A DNA stretch of 64,000 nucleotides from Nitrosomonas sp. GTDB taxonomy: Bacteria; Pseudomonadota; Gammaproteobacteria; Burkholderiales; Nitrosomonadaceae. Location: assembly GCF_019752415.1 (NCBI RefSeq), contig NZ_JAIEME010000011.1:1-64000 (forward strand). The letters run 5' to 3'. The position numbers were made by a program, and so were the translations under genes. This document shows positions 41,794 to 48,537 of the stretch, in pieces (within the stretch, counting starts at the first letter, position 1; the number at the start of each line of letters is the position of its first letter). Under the pieces are notes generated by a model. That model worked only from the letters and a program-made list of their open reading frames with translations. It was not told the DNA's origin and ran no database searches.

Positions 41794-42051
41794 ATGCCTA
41801 ATACTATACTGAGAGAACAAGAAGTTTTCATGTTACGTGGAGAGATGGAGATATTAATGAATGAACGTCAATGCCTGTTGGATACCACAGGCGCTGCAGC
41901 CATATTTGTGGCTAATCTGGACAGTACCTTATTGCCGGATTCGGCCTGTCAAGCAGCTAAGGTTTTATCAAATTCTTTAAATAAGTTACCTGAAGAGACC
42001 TTGCGGGATGCGCTGGAGAAGGTGAAATCAGAGTTTGCAGTTCGTGCATGA
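41794..42051 (+). CDS. Small uncharacterised protein upstream of patatin gene
   Basis: 85 residues, mostly helical: an N-terminal helix (REQEVFMLRGEMEILMNERQ) and a C-terminal helix (NKLPEETLRDALEKVKSE). DTTGAAAIFVANLDSTLLP between them may be a hydrophobic turn. AAAGG lies about 10 bases before the ATG. Its last 17 bases overlap the possible start of the patatin gene, so the two are probably translated together. Family unknown to me. Confidence 0.7.
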   Translation: MPNTILREQEVFMLRGEMEILMNERQCLLDTTGAAAIFVANLDSTLLPDSACQAAKVLSNSLNKLPEETLRDALEKVKSEFAVRA

Positions 42052-43213
42052 ACAGAAAACAGATTTAGTCACGCCTAAGGTTGGTCTTGTTCTAACCGGA
42101 GGTGGGGCGCGCGCTGCATATCAAGTGGGCGTATTGCGTGCCATTGCGGAGCTATTGCCCGATAAGACACGCAATCCTTTTCCTGTCATTTGTGGAACTT
42201 CCGCGGGTGCCATTAATGCAACCAGCATTGCAGTTTCAGCGAACAATTTTGCTGAGGGCGTGGAGCAACTTGAAGCTGTTTGGTCGAATTTTCATGTCAA
42301 TCAGATTTACCGCTCGGATTTTATGGGCGTAATGCATAACACTTTACGCTGTCTGCTTTCTTTAGTATCGAATGAATATAGTCAACATAATGCGATTTCC
42401 CTCCTGGACAATGCACCCTTAGAAGCACTATTAAAAGATCGCTTTCCGTTTCGCTCTATTCAATATTCTATCCGTTCTGGAGCATTGCATGCGCTGGGAC
42501 TCACTGCATGGGGTTATACGTCGGGGCAATCGGTTACCTTTTATCAGGCAGCCAGGGAAGTGATTCCGTGGAAAAGAGCACAAAGATTGGGTGTTCCCGT
42601 TGACATTGGTGTCGAGCATTTGATGGCTTCTTCGTCAATACCGTTTATTTTTCCCTCCGTGAAACTGAACCGAGAGTACTTCGGCGATGGCTCAATGCGC
42701 CAGATGGCGCCCATCAGTCCAGCGCTGCATTTGGGGGCAGATAAGGTGCTGATTATTGGTGTACGCAAAGCTGTTACTGACGAACCTGAACGCATGAGCG
42801 CTTCGAGTTATCCGCCCTTCGCGCAGATTGCAGGGCATGCGCTAAATAGTATATTTGTTGATAGCCTGGATGTAGATCTGGAACGTTTGTTGCGAATTAA
42901 TGAAACACTCAAACTGATTCCTCCTGATGTATTTAAAGCAAAAAATATATCGTTGCGCCCTGTTGAAGCGATGATGATATCGCCCAGCGAGGGCATTAAC
43001 GAAATTGCGCAAAAATATACGCATACCTTACCGTGGATCATGCGTTCTCTGTATCGTGCTATTGGTGCAATGGGACCCAATGGTTCAACTTTATTGAGTT
43101 ACGTGTTATTTGAAGCCCCTTTCTGCCGGGATTTAATCGCATTGGGATATAAGGATACCTTGCAACAGAAAGATGAACTTTTGAAGTTCATCGGCGTACA
43201 AGACAAAGTTTAG
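42035..43213 (+). CDS. Patatin-like phospholipase
   Basis: 392 residues from a TTG, or 389 from a GTG at 42044; no ATG lies in frame before the first motif. VGLVLTGGGARAAYQVGVL is the glycine-rich oxyanion region, CGTSAGAINA the GxSxG serine site, and FGDGSMRQMAPISPA the DG dyad Asp. The family hydrolyses acyl chains of membrane lipids. Cytoplasmic by the absence of a signal peptide. The start overlaps the small ORF upstream. Confidence 0.9.
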   Translation: MQFVHEQKTDLVTPKVGLVLTGGGARAAYQVGVLRAIAELLPDKTRNPFPVICGTSAGAINATSIAVSANNFAEGVEQLEAVWSNFHVNQIYRSDFMGVMHNTLRCLLSLVSNEYSQHNAISLLDNAPLEALLKDRFPFRSIQYSIRSGALHALGLTAWGYTSGQSVTFYQAAREVIPWKRAQRLGVPVDIGVEHLMASSSIPFIFPSVKLNREYFGDGSMRQMAPISPALHLGADKVLIIGVRKAVTDEPERMSASSYPPFAQIAGHALNSIFVDSLDVDLERLLRINETLKLIPPDVFKAKNISLRPVEAMMISPSEGINEIAQKYTHTLPWIMRSLYRAIGAMGPNGSTLLSYVLFEAPFCRDLIALGYKDTLQQKDELLKFIGVQDKV

Positions 43214-43264: not shown

Positions 43265-43987
43265 ATGGATTTTGATAGTCCGCAATTCTGGATTGCAGTC
43301 ATGCAGATCATTGCGATTGATATTGTGCTGGGTGGCGATAACGCCGTCGTGATCGCGCTTGCCTGTCGGCGCTTGCCTGAAAAACAACGCAAGCTTGGCA
43401 TTTTCTGGGGTGTTTTTGGTGCCATTATTTTACGTGTGGTGCTGATCTTTTTTGCTTTGAGCCTGCTGGCTATCCCTTACTTAAAGATTGTTGGTGCGGC
43501 TTTATTGATATGGATCGGTGTCAAGTTACTGCAGCCTGAACCGGAAGGGGCGCATGAAATTGATGCCAGTACGACCTTAGTAGGCGCAATCAAGACGATT
43601 ATTGTGGCGGACGCTGTGATGAGTCTTGATAATGTGATTGCTATCGCTGGGGCGGCTAAGGACGATATTGGGCTGGTGATTTTTGGTTTGGTGATTAGTG
43701 TACCTATCATTGTATGGGGCAGCCAAGTGGTGATGAAGGTCATGGATCGTTATCCGGTAACGATTGCTATTGGTGCTGGGCTGTTGGGATGGATTGCTGG
43801 TGACATGGTTGTTACTGATGTAGTCACGAAGGAGTGGATTAGTACGCAGGCGAAGTATTTACAATGGATTGCACCGGCCGCTACTGCTTTATTGGTAGTT
43901 GTGACAGGGAAAATGCTGGCTGCCCGGAAACCAGCTAAACCCCAACCATTGGAAGATTTAGCCGATGAAAAAATTTCCAAACATTAG
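43265..43987 (+). CDS. TerC/YjbE family integral membrane protein
   Basis: 240 residues with seven membrane helices. DIVLGGDNAVVIALACRRLP and the second half DAVMSLDNVIAIAGAAKDD carry the paired acidic motifs of the TerC family, linked to manganese export in several bacteria. There is no sign of a yybP-ykoY riboswitch in the 51-base upstream gap. It is the first of a closely spaced set running into the UspA gene. Confidence 0.9.
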   Translation: MDFDSPQFWIAVMQIIAIDIVLGGDNAVVIALACRRLPEKQRKLGIFWGVFGAIILRVVLIFFALSLLAIPYLKIVGAALLIWIGVKLLQPEPEGAHEIDASTTLVGAIKTIIVADAVMSLDNVIAIAGAAKDDIGLVIFGLVISVPIIVWGSQVVMKVMDRYPVTIAIGAGLLGWIAGDMVVTDVVTKEWISTQAKYLQWIAPAATALLVVVTGKMLAARKPAKPQPLEDLADEKISKH

Positions 43988-44016: not shown

Positions 44017-44442
44017 ATGTTGAAAATTCTGCTACCCGTAGATGGCTCTGAAAACTCCAGCAAAACAGTGACCGATTTCATTCAATTACTGGTTTGGTAC
44101 AAGGAAAAACCGGAATTCCACTTGTTGAATGTGCAGTATCCGCTGGATGGAAATATTTCATCGTTCATTAATCAGGCGGATATTAAGCAATACCATCAGG
44201 AAGAAGCCTTAAAAAGCCTACAGAATACCCGAGATTTGCTTGATCAAGCTGGGATTGCTTACCAGTATCATATTCTTGTCGGCGATCCCGCTGAAATGAT
44301 CGTTCGCTTTGCTACTGAAAAACAGTACGATCAAATCATCATGGGGCCGCGTGGAAAGGGAGGCCTAAGCGGCTTGTTGCTTGGGTCAGTAACCAACAAA
44401 GTAATGCAATTATCAAATATTCCCGTGTTATTGATCAAATAA
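44017..44442 (+). CDS. Universal stress protein UspA family
   Basis: 141 residues. KILLPVDGSENSS at the start and IIMGPRGKGGLSGLLLGSVT at the end (G-x2-G-x9-G-S) are the ATP-binding pattern, so this should be an ATP-binding member. It follows the TerC gene by 29 bases and precedes the phosphodiesterase gene by 20, suggesting cotranscription. Confidence 0.92.
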   Translation: MLKILLPVDGSENSSKTVTDFIQLLVWYKEKPEFHLLNVQYPLDGNISSFINQADIKQYHQEEALKSLQNTRDLLDQAGIAYQYHILVGDPAEMIVRFATEKQYDQIIMGPRGKGGLSGLLLGSVTNKVMQLSNIPVLLIK

Positions 44443-44462: not shown

Positions 44463-45227
44463 TTGAAACTCAGAGTCTTGGGGTGTGGCGGAGGGATTGG
44501 AGGCGGCGCACAGACCACCGCTATGCTGCTGGATGATGATGTTTTGATTGATGCAGGAACGGGTGTGGGAAGACTGAGTTTCTCAGACCTGATCAAAATT
44601 GATCATATTTTTGTCACCCATGCGCATTTGGATCATGTGGCTTTTATTCCTTTTTTAGTAGATACCGTTGGTTCTATGCGCACCAAACCTCTAATCATCC
44701 ACGCGATACAAGCGACATTGGATGTATTGCAGGCGCATTTGTTTAATTGGCAGATTTGGCCGGATTTTACCAAAATTCCAGATCATAATTTGCCTTACAT
44801 GCGTTACGAAGCTTTATCCCTCGGTCATGCCAGTGATTTGAATGGACGAAAAATCACGCCGCTACCTGCGAATCATGTAGTTCCGGCTGTTGGTTATCAA
44901 TTGGATTCCGGTCGTGGGAGTCTTGTATTTACCGGAGATACAACGACTAATGATGCGCTCTGGACAGCCGTTAATAAAATTGAGAACCTTAAGTATTTAA
45001 TCATTGAATCAGCATTCTGCAATCAGAAAAGGGATATTGCGATCAGGTCTAAACATCTGTGTCCCAGTTTATTGGCGGAAGAATTGGAAAAACTTGAACA
45101 GACTGCGGAAATATTTATTACACACCTGAAGCCCAGTGAAGCAGATGCGATTATGCGCGAAATACAGCAATACATAGGAAGATATAGTCCGCAACGGCTT
45201 GAGAACGATCAATTATTCGAATTCTAG
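44463..45227 (+). CDS. Metallo-beta-lactamase fold 3',5'-cyclic nucleotide phosphodiesterase
   Basis: 254 residues from a TTG with GAGG about 8 bases upstream. FVTHAHLDHVAFIPFLVDT is the HxHxDH metal site, PANHVVPAVGYQL and FTGDTT complete the metal ligands, and the layout matches class II cAMP phosphodiesterases (yeast Pde1/Vibrio CpdP type). It probably hydrolyses cAMP or a related cyclic nucleotide. It ends 22 bases before a gene for a GAF-domain ATPase, which may be meaningful. Confidence 0.85.
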   Translation: MKLRVLGCGGGIGGGAQTTAMLLDDDVLIDAGTGVGRLSFSDLIKIDHIFVTHAHLDHVAFIPFLVDTVGSMRTKPLIIHAIQATLDVLQAHLFNWQIWPDFTKIPDHNLPYMRYEALSLGHASDLNGRKITPLPANHVVPAVGYQLDSGRGSLVFTGDTTTNDALWTAVNKIENLKYLIIESAFCNQKRDIAIRSKHLCPSLLAEELEKLEQTAEIFITHLKPSEADAIMREIQQYIGRYSPQRLENDQLFEF

Positions 45228-45249
45228 GAAGCTCTGGAGAACCGATACC

Positions 45250-47634
45250 ATGAATACAACTGTTACGACACCACTCAAGCAAACGGATGCGACTGATATC
45301 AATAACGAATTGAATTTTGCTAAAAATTTGCAGATGGTCGTCAACAAAATAAACGCTGCCAATGATATCGACGAAATCATGCTGGAAGTTAGCAAGGATA
45401 TCTGTGCATTGTTCAATGCGGATCGATTGACTGTTTATGCGTTGAGCGACGATAAATCTGCTTTTATTTCCCGGGTTAAAACAGGCTTTGATTCTTTCCA
45501 GGACCTGAGATTGCCGGTGGCAGAAAACAGCATTGTTGGTTTTTCGGGTTTGCAGAAGCAAGTCCTCAATATTGAGGATGTTTACAATAAGAGCGAGTTA
45601 AAACAAATCAATCCAACGCTTGTCTTTTCGCATGAGGTTGATAAGCGTACCGGGTATCGAACCAAACAGATGGTGGTGGTGCCGATCCTGAATGCAGATA
45701 ATCAGGAATTGTTGGGCGTAGTCCAGGCCATTAATAACAGGAGTAACCAGCCATTCCCGGTAGCAACTGCTGTTGCAGGTATGATTGAGATCTGTAAGAC
45801 CCTTGCAATTATATTTAAACAGCGTCAGAAGCCTGTTCAGCTACTTAAATCGAAATACGATTATTTGATTTTCGATGCGGTGATTTCTGCTGCCGAATTT
45901 GAGTTGGCGACGCGTTCGGCGCGAAAAAAAGGGTGTGATCTGGAAGATGTGTTGCTCGACGAATTCCAGATTGGTTTGTCGCTCATCGGCAAAGCGCTTT
46001 CTTCATTTTTTTCGGTCCGGTACGAGCCTTTTAAAAAGGATCGGATTCGGCCGATGGATTTGCTTAAAAATTTAAAAAAGGACTATGTCGAGAGTAATTC
46101 CTTGTTGCCGATTGATGAAATTAAAGAAGGGCTGGTGGTTCTCACATTGGATCCTGAGCGGGTTAAGTCACAGCGCATCGCCAACACTATTTTCCCCAAG
46201 CATAAGATTATCTATGCGGTTACCACCAAGCGTGAGTTTAATGCAACGGTTGAACAGTTCTATGGTGGTCAGCAGGGTGAAAGTGATACAGGCGATATTA
46301 ATGAGATGCTGTTTAATCTTGCGGATGAGAATGTTGAAGAAGGGTTCAACGAAATAGAAGAATCTGCAGAAGCTTCCGACAATGAGCTGGTCAAGCTCGT
46401 CAATAAAATCATCATCGATGCCTATAAAATGGGAGTGTCGGATATTCATGTCGAACCTTACACAGGAAAAGAGAAAACCAAAATCCGCTTTCGCAAGGAT
46501 GGCTCATTAATGTCTTATATCGAGGTTCCGGCCAGTTATCGTAATCCGCTGGTGACACGCATTAAGATTATGTGTGATATGGATATTTCCGAGAAGCGCA
46601 GGCCGCAGGATGGCAAGATTAAATTCAGGAAATTTGCGCCATTGGACATTGAATTGCGCGTTGCGACTATTCCTTCAGCGGGCGGACTGGAAGATGTCGT
46701 CATGCGTATACTCGCTACCGGTGAACCGATTCCGCTGGATAAGATGGGGTTTACTGCGCACAATTTGGAGGAGCTGAAAAAAATAATCAGTAAACCGTAT
46801 GGGCTATTTTTTGTGTGTGGCCCAACCGGCTCGGGTAAAACGACCACGTTGCATTCGGTGTTGAAGTACCTCAATCGTACAGAAACCAAAATTTGGACAG
46901 CGGAAGATCCGGTTGAGATCACCCAAAAGGGATTGCGGCAGGTGCAGATCAATGTTAAGGCAGGCTTGACCTTTCCGGTCATCATGCGGTCTTTTCTGCG
47001 TGCCGATCCGGATATCATTATGGTCGGTGAGATGCGCGACAAGGAAACCACCAGTATCGGGATTGAGGCTTCATTAACGGGACATCTGGTTTTGGCGACA
47101 TTGCATACCAATAGCGCGCCGGAATCTGTGACCCGCTTGTTGGATATGGGGATGGATCCGTTTAATTTTGCCGATGCGTTGTTGGGAGTTTTAGCGCAAC
47201 GGCTGGCGAAGCGTCTGTGTCAATGTAAAGAATCGTATGTGGCCAGCGAACATGAAATCAAATCTTTATTAACAGAATATTGTGATGAATTGAATCATAT
47301 TGACCGGTTTAAAGCGAATCCGGAAGCCGCCTACCAAGAAGTTCATGATCAATGGATCAAACAATACGGTGATGACGCGGGGCAGATTATCTTGTGTAAA
47401 CCAGCCGGTTGTGATGACTGTGCCGGTACTGGTTATTCGGGCCGGGTAGGGTTGCATGAACTGATGATTGCCAGTGACGCATTGAAAAAGAATATCCAGG
47501 AACATGCCCGCGTCGCGGAAATGCTAGTGACGGCATTGGATGATGGGATGCGAACGCTGAAGCAAGATGGAATCGAGAAGGTGTTGCAGGGAGTTACCGA
47601 TATGCATCAGGTGCGGGTGGTTTGTATCAAGTAA
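45250..47634 (+). CDS. GAF domain-GspE/PulE family ATPase
   Basis: 794 residues from the ATG at 45250 with GGAG upstream. Residues 20-190 are a GAF domain (CALFNADRLTVYALSDD, GVVQAINNRSNQPF), residues 215-340 a MshEN-like region often tied to cyclic-di-GMP or ATPase control, and residues 400-790 a secretion/pilus ATPase: Walker A FVCGPTGSGKTTT, Walker B DPDIIMVGEMRD, His box LVLATLHTN, and a Cys-rich zinc site ending CDDCAGTGYSGRVGLHELM. It powers pilus or type II secretion polymerisation, but GAF fusion is unusual for PilB itself. Confidence 0.9.
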   Translation: MNTTVTTPLKQTDATDINNELNFAKNLQMVVNKINAANDIDEIMLEVSKDICALFNADRLTVYALSDDKSAFISRVKTGFDSFQDLRLPVAENSIVGFSGLQKQVLNIEDVYNKSELKQINPTLVFSHEVDKRTGYRTKQMVVVPILNADNQELLGVVQAINNRSNQPFPVATAVAGMIEICKTLAIIFKQRQKPVQLLKSKYDYLIFDAVISAAEFELATRSARKKGCDLEDVLLDEFQIGLSLIGKALSSFFSVRYEPFKKDRIRPMDLLKNLKKDYVESNSLLPIDEIKEGLVVLTLDPERVKSQRIANTIFPKHKIIYAVTTKREFNATVEQFYGGQQGESDTGDINEMLFNLADENVEEGFNEIEESAEASDNELVKLVNKIIIDAYKMGVSDIHVEPYTGKEKTKIRFRKDGSLMSYIEVPASYRNPLVTRIKIMCDMDISEKRRPQDGKIKFRKFAPLDIELRVATIPSAGGLEDVVMRILATGEPIPLDKMGFTAHNLEELKKIISKPYGLFFVCGPTGSGKTTTLHSVLKYLNRTETKIWTAEDPVEITQKGLRQVQINVKAGLTFPVIMRSFLRADPDIIMVGEMRDKETTSIGIEASLTGHLVLATLHTNSAPESVTRLLDMGMDPFNFADALLGVLAQRLAKRLCQCKESYVASEHEIKSLLTEYCDELNHIDRFKANPEAAYQEVHDQWIKQYGDDAGQIILCKPAGCDDCAGTGYSGRVGLHELMIASDALKKNIQEHARVAEMLVTALDDGMRTLKQDGIEKVLQGVTDMHQVRVVCIK

Positions 47635-48051: not shown

Positions 48052-48537
48052 CTAGCAAATAGCACCAGCAGCACGAGTTGAGCAACCGCCACCTCTAACC
48101 CAATTCACTTTGCCATCTGCTCCAAGTGTACCAACAAGCTGAAAGGTGTCTGCTACTGCTATTCCATTAACAGCTCTAGGCGCGAGTGTTAGTGTGGCTA
48201 CAGCACCTGCGACTGCAAGTGTGACTCCGGCCGGATTAAACGGGGAAGTGGCTGCCGCAGTTGCGATACCAGGAATGCCAGCAGTAACTGCTGCAGCATT
48301 GGGTACGCCAGCAGCTACTGCGATTGCTGTAAAAGCACCAGCATTCACACAATCCCCACTCTGTGCGCATACTTCTACTGCGAGTTTATAAGGTGCGGAT
48401 GCTGAACTAACTTCAGTAAACCGAGCTTTTAGAGTATAGTTTTGATAAGCAGGCACCGCTACAGCAGCCAGAATACCAATAATAGCCACAACGATCATTA
48501 ATTCGATAAGTGTAAAACCTTTTTGTGCTTGTTGCAT
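48052..48537 (-). CDS. pilA: Type IV major pilin
   Basis: 161 residues. MQQAQKG^[12 protein letters not shown] is a class a prepilin leader: PilD cleaves after Gly7 and methylates Phe. The hydrophobic helix continues to VPAYQNY. The globular part is very Ala- and Val-rich with two cysteine pairs, one near VCAQSGDCV and one at the C-terminus ([13 protein letters not shown]), which should close the D-region loop. AAAGGAG precedes the ATG, and a sigma-54 promoter lies upstream. Confidence 0.94.

Follow-up and report, generated by a model that had tools for sequence, protein, structure and literature searches.

In a 64,000-nucleotide stretch of Nitrosomonas sp. DNA (contig NZ_JAIEME010000011.1, positions 1 to 64,000, called the window in the following), the gene of a metallo-beta-lactamase (MBL) fold protein resembling phosphodiesterases is directly followed by that of a GAF-ATPase, an assembly ATPase with an N-terminal GAF domain. 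Our preferred interpretation, to which we assign a probability of roughly 0.56, is that this pair constitutes the core of a type IV pilus motor that is gated by cyclic nucleotides and has its own phosphodiesterase. According to this model, the GAF sensor, which is fused ahead of the PilB-like ATPase, would read a ligand of the cyclic AMP/cyclic GMP (cAMP/cGMP) type and this ligand would switch pilus building directly on or off. The neighboring MBL protein would remove the ligand locally and reset the switch. We base this interpretation on gene order, domain composition, residue conservation, genomic linkage and the absence of a recognizable canonical pilB, and the following features of the window are central to it:

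44463..45227, plus strand: gene of the MBL-fold phosphodiesterase-like protein (254 amino acids), TTG start behind a GAGG-type ribosome site; assigned by Pfam, AlphaFold2 (AF2) fold and invariant metal ligands
44619..44636, plus strand: HAHLDH metal-binding motif (THxHxDH type), read from the sequence; H53/H55/D57/H58 invariant
45250..47634, plus strand: gene of the GAF-MshEN-like-T2SSE ATPase (794 amino acids, ATG start), assigned by Pfam; likely type IV pilus extension motor
45364..45756, plus strand: GAF domain, residues 39-169 (Pfam GAF); the best PDB matches are cAMP/cGMP-binding GAFs
45637..45663, plus strand: VDKRTGYRT signature, residues 130-138, which aligns with VDQITGYKT of PDE5 and IDQQNGYRT of CyaB2
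46054..46275, plus strand: MshEN-like domain without the cyclic di-GMP (c-di-GMP) motif (Pfam MshEN)
46372..47613, plus strand: T2SSE ATPase domain (Pfam PF00437)

Nitrosomonadaceae genomes were searched with each of the two proteins. Here, we found that among the 85 Nitrosomonas genomes the ATPase was present in 84 and the MBL protein in 75, and in all of these (75/75) the MBL gene was located directly upstream of the ATPase gene. There was no Nitrosomonas genome in which the MBL gene was located only elsewhere than the ATPase gene. In an order sample of 399 genomes, the GAF-ATPase was detected in 155 and a related MBL protein in 220; all order-sample figures are counts among the matches listed, and related genomes are not independent of each other. 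Among these listed matches, 118 of the 142 Burkholderiales genomes with the ATPase had the MBL gene on the same strand no more than 3.1 kb upstream, and in 92 of these 118 the distance did not exceed 300 bp. Most of the remaining listed pairs were about 1.1-1.4 kb apart, which is the size of one inserted gene. Since the linkage is conserved across genus and order, a chance co-location can be excluded. A preliminary description of this DNA had suggested comparing the gene neighborhoods, and the comparison shows the pair to be conserved in the genus Nitrosomonas and in the order Burkholderiales.

The source genome is a 99.93% complete Nitrosomonas draft comprising 2.96 Mb on 108 contigs, and it yielded five T2SSE-family matches. 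Apart from the GAF-ATPase, these were PilT and PilU, which are encoded side by side on contig C22, a weak match on contig C16 that scored under the family cut-off, and an ATPase on contig C13, which reached neither the PilB nor the GspE cut-off and is encoded together with gspF-, gspG- and gspD-like genes. No canonical pilB was recognizable in the source genome, in which pilC, pilD, pilT and pilU are present (pilD was named from its sequence and had no NCBIfam match at the threshold used). The GAF-ATPase bears the two Walker motifs (A and B) and the paired Cys motifs that are found in assembly ATPases, and its best NCBIfam match was PilB (TIGR02538) with 473.4 bits, which is under the cut-off of 675.65. 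Since no canonical pilB was recognizable and the other assembly ATPase belongs to a gsp-like cluster, the GAF-ATPase is likely to be the sole pilus extension motor, and in this one near-complete draft genome it is the only good candidate for this function. The "pilus or secretion" role proposed in the preliminary description can thus be specified as one in the type IV pilus, and the secretion part was abandoned because a secretion-type ATPase is present in its own gsp-like cluster and a canonical pilB was not found. For the same reasons (C13 ATPase under both cut-offs and located in this cluster), we dropped the idea of a TfpB-like second motor working beside a canonical PilB. The MshEN-like domain gave neither a strict nor a relaxed match to the RLG-type c-di-GMP motif, and c-di-GMP control via MshEN was rejected because this motif is absent. 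As additional observations, the type II secretion-like cluster on C13 (locus L273, 519-9519) comprises gspE-, gspF-, gspG- and secretin-like genes, and the pilC-pilD-coaE-zapD locus on C22 (L272, 7623-11224) lacks the pilB gene that would be expected there.

In Pfam the ATPase scored 29.3 bits for GAF (cut-off 22.4), 32.0 for MshEN (23.1) and 373 for T2SSE (24.9). When the PDB was searched with a profile of ten GAF domains, the adenylyl cyclase CyaB2 ranked first (E=1.5e-30), followed by the HD-GYP protein 4mcw and then by PDE5, PDE6, PDE2A and PDE10. A fold search with the predicted GAF structure (mean predicted local distance difference test score, pLDDT, 86.5) gave the same group. GAFb of CyaB2 contacts cAMP via R291, T293, D356 and N359 (PMC4411481), and the residues aligned to these contacts are R59, T61, D131 and T134. 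Outside Nitrosomonas these residues were conserved in 73/73 (R59), 71/73 (T61), 73/73 (D131) and 72/73 (T134) sequences, and similar numbers were obtained for K77 (73/73), N162 (73/73) and F169 (72/73). The pocket residues are also kept across diverse Nitrosomonas. Thus, a check of the GAF pocket for nucleotide-binding residues, which the preliminary description had proposed, found those aligned to the CyaB2 contacts retained, and on the basis of these alignments the domain may be a sensor of the cAMP/cGMP type.

The MBL protein exceeded the Pfam cut-offs for PDEase_II (55.7 bits, cut-off 23.7) and Lactamase_B_2 (51.6 bits, cut-off 27), and its THAHLDH sequence (44616-44636) fits the [T/S]HxHxDH metal motif of the atypical class II phosphodiesterases. 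The dinuclear metal site is complete, with H53, H55, D57, H58, H138, D159 and H221 being invariant in 36 orthologues. The nearest folds to its AF2 model (mean pLDDT 95.6) were Bacillus subtilis YhfI, which was the top match, and yeast PDE1, both of which are cyclic-nucleotide phosphodiesterases; Apyc1 came next, and RNase Z ranked lower. YhfI is one of the atypical class II phosphodiesterases, for which the motif class has been described (PMC9293780), and it prefers cAMP/cGMP (PMC9117128). Taken together, sequence and structure model suggest that the MBL protein is likely to be an enzyme that destroys cyclic nucleotides. A stand-alone MBL orthologue, which is 46% identical, was found in another genus of the family (g3; L044, 5512-6276) in a genome without GAF-ATPase.

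In other Burkholderiales the pair is part of a larger cassette. At locus L141 the Pfam assignments give the order CHASE2-Ser/Thr kinase, PP2C, FHA, CHASE2-class III cyclase, MBL, cyclic nucleoside monophosphate (cNMP)-binding domain plus rhodanese, GAF-ATPase and GAF-HD. Counted on the same strand as lower bounds, because contig ends cut some loci, the 34 named non-Nitrosomonas loci carried the kinase in at least 26, PP2C in at least 28, FHA in at least 31, the cyclase in at least 31, MBL in at least 31, the cNMP-binding-rhodanese protein in at least 25, GAF-HD in at least 32 and a pilin in at least 18 cases. The corresponding minimal numbers for 39 order-sample loci were 18 (kinase), 30 (PP2C), 30 (FHA), 20 (cyclase), 30 (MBL), 4 (cNMP-binding-rhodanese), 25 (GAF-HD) and 20 (pilin). 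The MBL gene directly follows a cyclase gene in relatives, and in many of them a pilin gene comes after the ATPase. In many Burkholderiales, a fusion of a cNMP-binding domain to rhodanese (L141, 7693-8763, and orthologues) is inserted between the MBL and the GAF-ATPase gene. Homologues further away in the class (27-31% identity) mostly had no cassette, and one of 11 distant loci (L263) had MBL, GAF-HD and CHASE2-cyclase genes nearby. We did not find a description of the cassette in the literature searched, which included few subscription journals.

The cassette cyclases retain both metal-binding Asp residues, the substrate Lys/Asp pair and the Asn/Arg pair. In class III cyclases, a conserved substrate Lys together with Asp indicates an adenylate cyclase. 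Since both residues are conserved, the cassette enzyme is predicted to be an adenylate cyclase and its product to be cAMP. In most Burkholderiales carriers the ligand, predicted to be cAMP, would therefore be made by the CHASE2 class III cyclase of the same cassette. For these organisms we tentatively propose a complete circuit encoded in an operon, for which we consider the chances to be somewhat less than even: two CHASE2 sensors would drive a kinase-PP2C-FHA branch and a cAMP cyclase, the MBL enzyme would clear the nucleotide, the GAF domain on the sole extension motor would read it, and cAMP would gate pilus assembly directly and not via transcription. In Nitrosomonas the locus is reduced and lacks the kinase, PP2C, FHA, the cyclase and the cNMP-binding domain. 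PP2C, FHA and GAF-HD are retained in genus g4 (L042), and a GAF-HD orthologue was sought in the source Nitrosomonas genome and not found. According to our model, the cyclase, the kinase branch and the cNMP-binding protein would have been lost from the Nitrosomonas locus with the MBL-motor pair surviving, and this pair probably responds to a cNMP from a cyclase encoded elsewhere in the genome.

The rare losses within Nitrosomonas also bear on this model. In three genomes (G010, G011, G080; loci L045, L046, L220) the GAF domain was deleted or had decayed, the ATPase core was intact and the MBL gene was absent. Complete GAF deletions were confined to MBL-less genomes (three cases; Fisher test 0.005, without correction for ancestry). 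At least one class III cyclase was found in 83/85 Nitrosomonas genomes, and the only two without such a match (G011, G079) both lacked MBL (Fisher test 0.013, again not corrected for ancestry). In Nitrosomonas supralitoralis (L091), and also at locus L013, stops interrupt the MBL gene and the adjacent GAF-ATPase gene is intact. A strict tie between MBL loss and decay of the GAF pocket was not found, as T61I occurs with and without MBL and a degenerate GAF is present together with MBL at L221. The loss patterns lean towards a functional coupling and do not constitute proof.

A number of observations weigh against a cyclic-nucleotide-gated motor, and the first group concerns the GAF domain. Its NKFDE motif is degenerate, with N162 and F169 as the only residues retained and K, D and E lost, and the acid pair that follows F in relatives (E175, E176) is missing in the window protein. 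The NKFDE residues do not contact the ligand yet are required for binding in PDE2 and PDE5, and Ala substitution at each of them abolished cGMP binding of PDE2 (PMC11977230). The loss of this motif is therefore the main sequence argument against ligand binding. The preliminary description had stated that the end of the GAF domain (VQAINNRSNQPF) partly resembles the NKFD motif: the quoted string is present in the protein and the resemblance is weaker than claimed, since it is limited to N and F. In some MBL-bearing Nitrosomonas T61 is replaced by I, the GAF that accompanies MBL at L221 is degenerate, and GAF is retained without any MBL match in six Nitrosomonas genomes. These losses are few and are not corrected for ancestry.

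The second group concerns the enzyme that would supply the nucleotide. The source genome has no cassette cyclase, a class I cyclase was not found there, and the single class III cyclase match (contig C9) is divergent and without the substrate Lys. Should the C9 cyclase be inactive, the ligand would be another molecule or the pair would be a remnant. As a side observation, this cyclase (L214, 2834-8706) is CHASE2-like by reading and adjoins a gene of a FecR-TPR outer-membrane-like protein.

One might assume that the GAF domain binds another ligand or only dimerizes, and that the MBL protein is tied to the cassette cyclase and the cNMP-binding protein and not to the motor. The degenerate NKFDE motif is in line with this scenario, as are the retention of GAF in MBL-less Nitrosomonas and the close GAF match to 4mcw. 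To our knowledge, 4mcw is not an established cAMP/cGMP receptor. However, the genes of the cyclase and the cNMP-binding protein are gone in Nitrosomonas and the MBL gene is still found beside the motor in 75/84 genomes, and there is hardly any variation in the pocket residues at the cAMP contacts. We therefore consider this explanation unlikely, although it survives best among the alternatives. With the NCBIfam cNMP phosphodiesterase equivalog NF041851 the MBL protein scored 35.1 bits, which is far under the curated cut-off of 400; the protein is thus not filed there, and this speaks against our assignment. It is conceivable that the protein has another phosphodiester as its substrate (with an RNase Z-like or PhnP-like activity, or on another nucleotide) and that no cyclic nucleotide is involved in the source genome, where the local cyclase is absent. 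The top NCBIfam score of the protein came from RNase Z profiles, and the fold neighbors include structures of RNase Z and PhnP, but an RNase Z identity was rejected because this score is far under the cut-off (65.8 vs 293 bits) and the gene is dispensable (no match in 10/85 Nitrosomonas), unlike that of a housekeeping tRNA enzyme. The closest structural neighbors are cyclic-nucleotide phosphodiesterases, and the gene directly follows that of the cyclase in relatives, so that we regard a different substrate as quite improbable. That the co-location reflects an inherited old operon order, which would make the Nitrosomonas pair a relic without functional coupling, is least credible. The conserved wider run (patatin, TerC, UspA) and the loss of the acid pair and of the cyclase in Nitrosomonas would fit, but the linkage was maintained while surrounding genes changed (kinase cassette, patatin, insertion of the cNMP-binding domain) and the pocket residues are conserved across diverse Nitrosomonas.

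The cyclic-nucleotide-gated motor remains our preferred reading, and for it we infer ligand binding, the identity of the ligand, the phosphodiesterase activity and the direction of control (stimulation or restraint of the motor). The coupling suggested in the preliminary description stands in part: the conserved pair, the GAF pocket residues and the cyclase and cNMP-binding genes in relatives argue for it, and the weak NKFDE motif, the absent cassette cyclase and the predicted nature of the functions limit it. With the relatives included, the link to cyclic nucleotides is much better supported than by the window alone.

In the window, the pair ends a tight run of genes on the same strand (patatin, TerC/YjbE, UspA, MBL, GAF-PulE ATPase), with intergenic gaps from patatin to ATPase of 51, 29, 20 and 22 bases. 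The last gap (45227 to 45250) and the UspA gene within the run had been correctly noted before. The other genes concerned are:

42035..43213, plus strand: patatin-like gene (Pfam Patatin), with which the conserved run starts in Nitrosomonas
43265..43987, plus strand: TerC/YjbE-family membrane protein gene (Pfam TerC, NCBIfam YjbE), conserved in the run
44017..44442, plus strand: UspA-family gene (Pfam Usp, 92.2 bits), kept upstream of MBL in Nitrosomonas
48052..48537, minus strand: type IV pilin-like gene (Pfam N_methyl), convergent and downstream of the ATPase

The patatin-like gene heads the run in nearly all Nitrosomonas loci and gave a weak match to a CBASS lipase model (46 vs 200 bits). 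Promoter and terminator scans yielded nothing clearly over shuffled sequence.

If our interpretation is correct, there would be a fast and local cAMP route to pilus extension, via a motor with a PDE-type GAF, its own phosphodiesterase and its own cyclase. Control of pili by cAMP is known mainly via transcription (Vfr in Pseudomonas; PMC11656802). Direct nucleotide control of a pilus motor is already known for c-di-GMP, which acts through MshEN. In the literature searched, which covered few subscription journals, we found no description of a type IV pilus motor directly controlled by a PDE-type GAF. The carriers form a large and environmentally important group including ammonia oxidizers, for which surface attachment and floc formation matter, and the cassette offers a compact gene set for testing the cAMP route.

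When compared with known systems, the GAF-ATPase shares the ATPase core, the Walker motifs and the paired Cys with PilB (TIGR02538), but it has an extra GAF domain, scores under the PilB cut-off and has its gene apart from pilC-pilD. TfpB of Acinetobacter baylyi (PMC8213720) is likewise a phylogenetically distinct PilB-like extension ATPase. However, the GAF-ATPase reached only 390.5 bits with the TfpB model NF053534 (cut-off 850), which has 584 positions compared with 794 amino acids, and TfpB works beside PilB as a second extension motor, whereas no canonical PilB was found here. With Rv1339, YhfI and CpdA of Corynebacterium glutamicum the MBL protein shares the fold, the [T/S]HxHxDH motif and a length of about 250 amino acids (PMC9293780, PMC9117128); it differs in scoring under the NCBIfam family cut-off and in being encoded beside a pilus motor. 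The GAF domains of CyaB2 and of PDE2/5/6/10 are the closest in sequence and fold and have the contact residues and the TGYRT-type signature in common with the GAF of the ATPase, but theirs are tandem domains, whereas here a single GAF with a degenerate NKFDE motif has a pilus motor as output. Finally, in ATPases of the MshE/MshEN type (PMC4624772, PMC11656802) the N-terminal part of a T2SSE-family motor is likewise the direct target of a nucleotide second messenger. In contrast to these enzymes, the protein described here lacks the MshEN motif and carries a PDE/cyclase-type GAF in front, and its predicted ligand is a cyclic mononucleotide.

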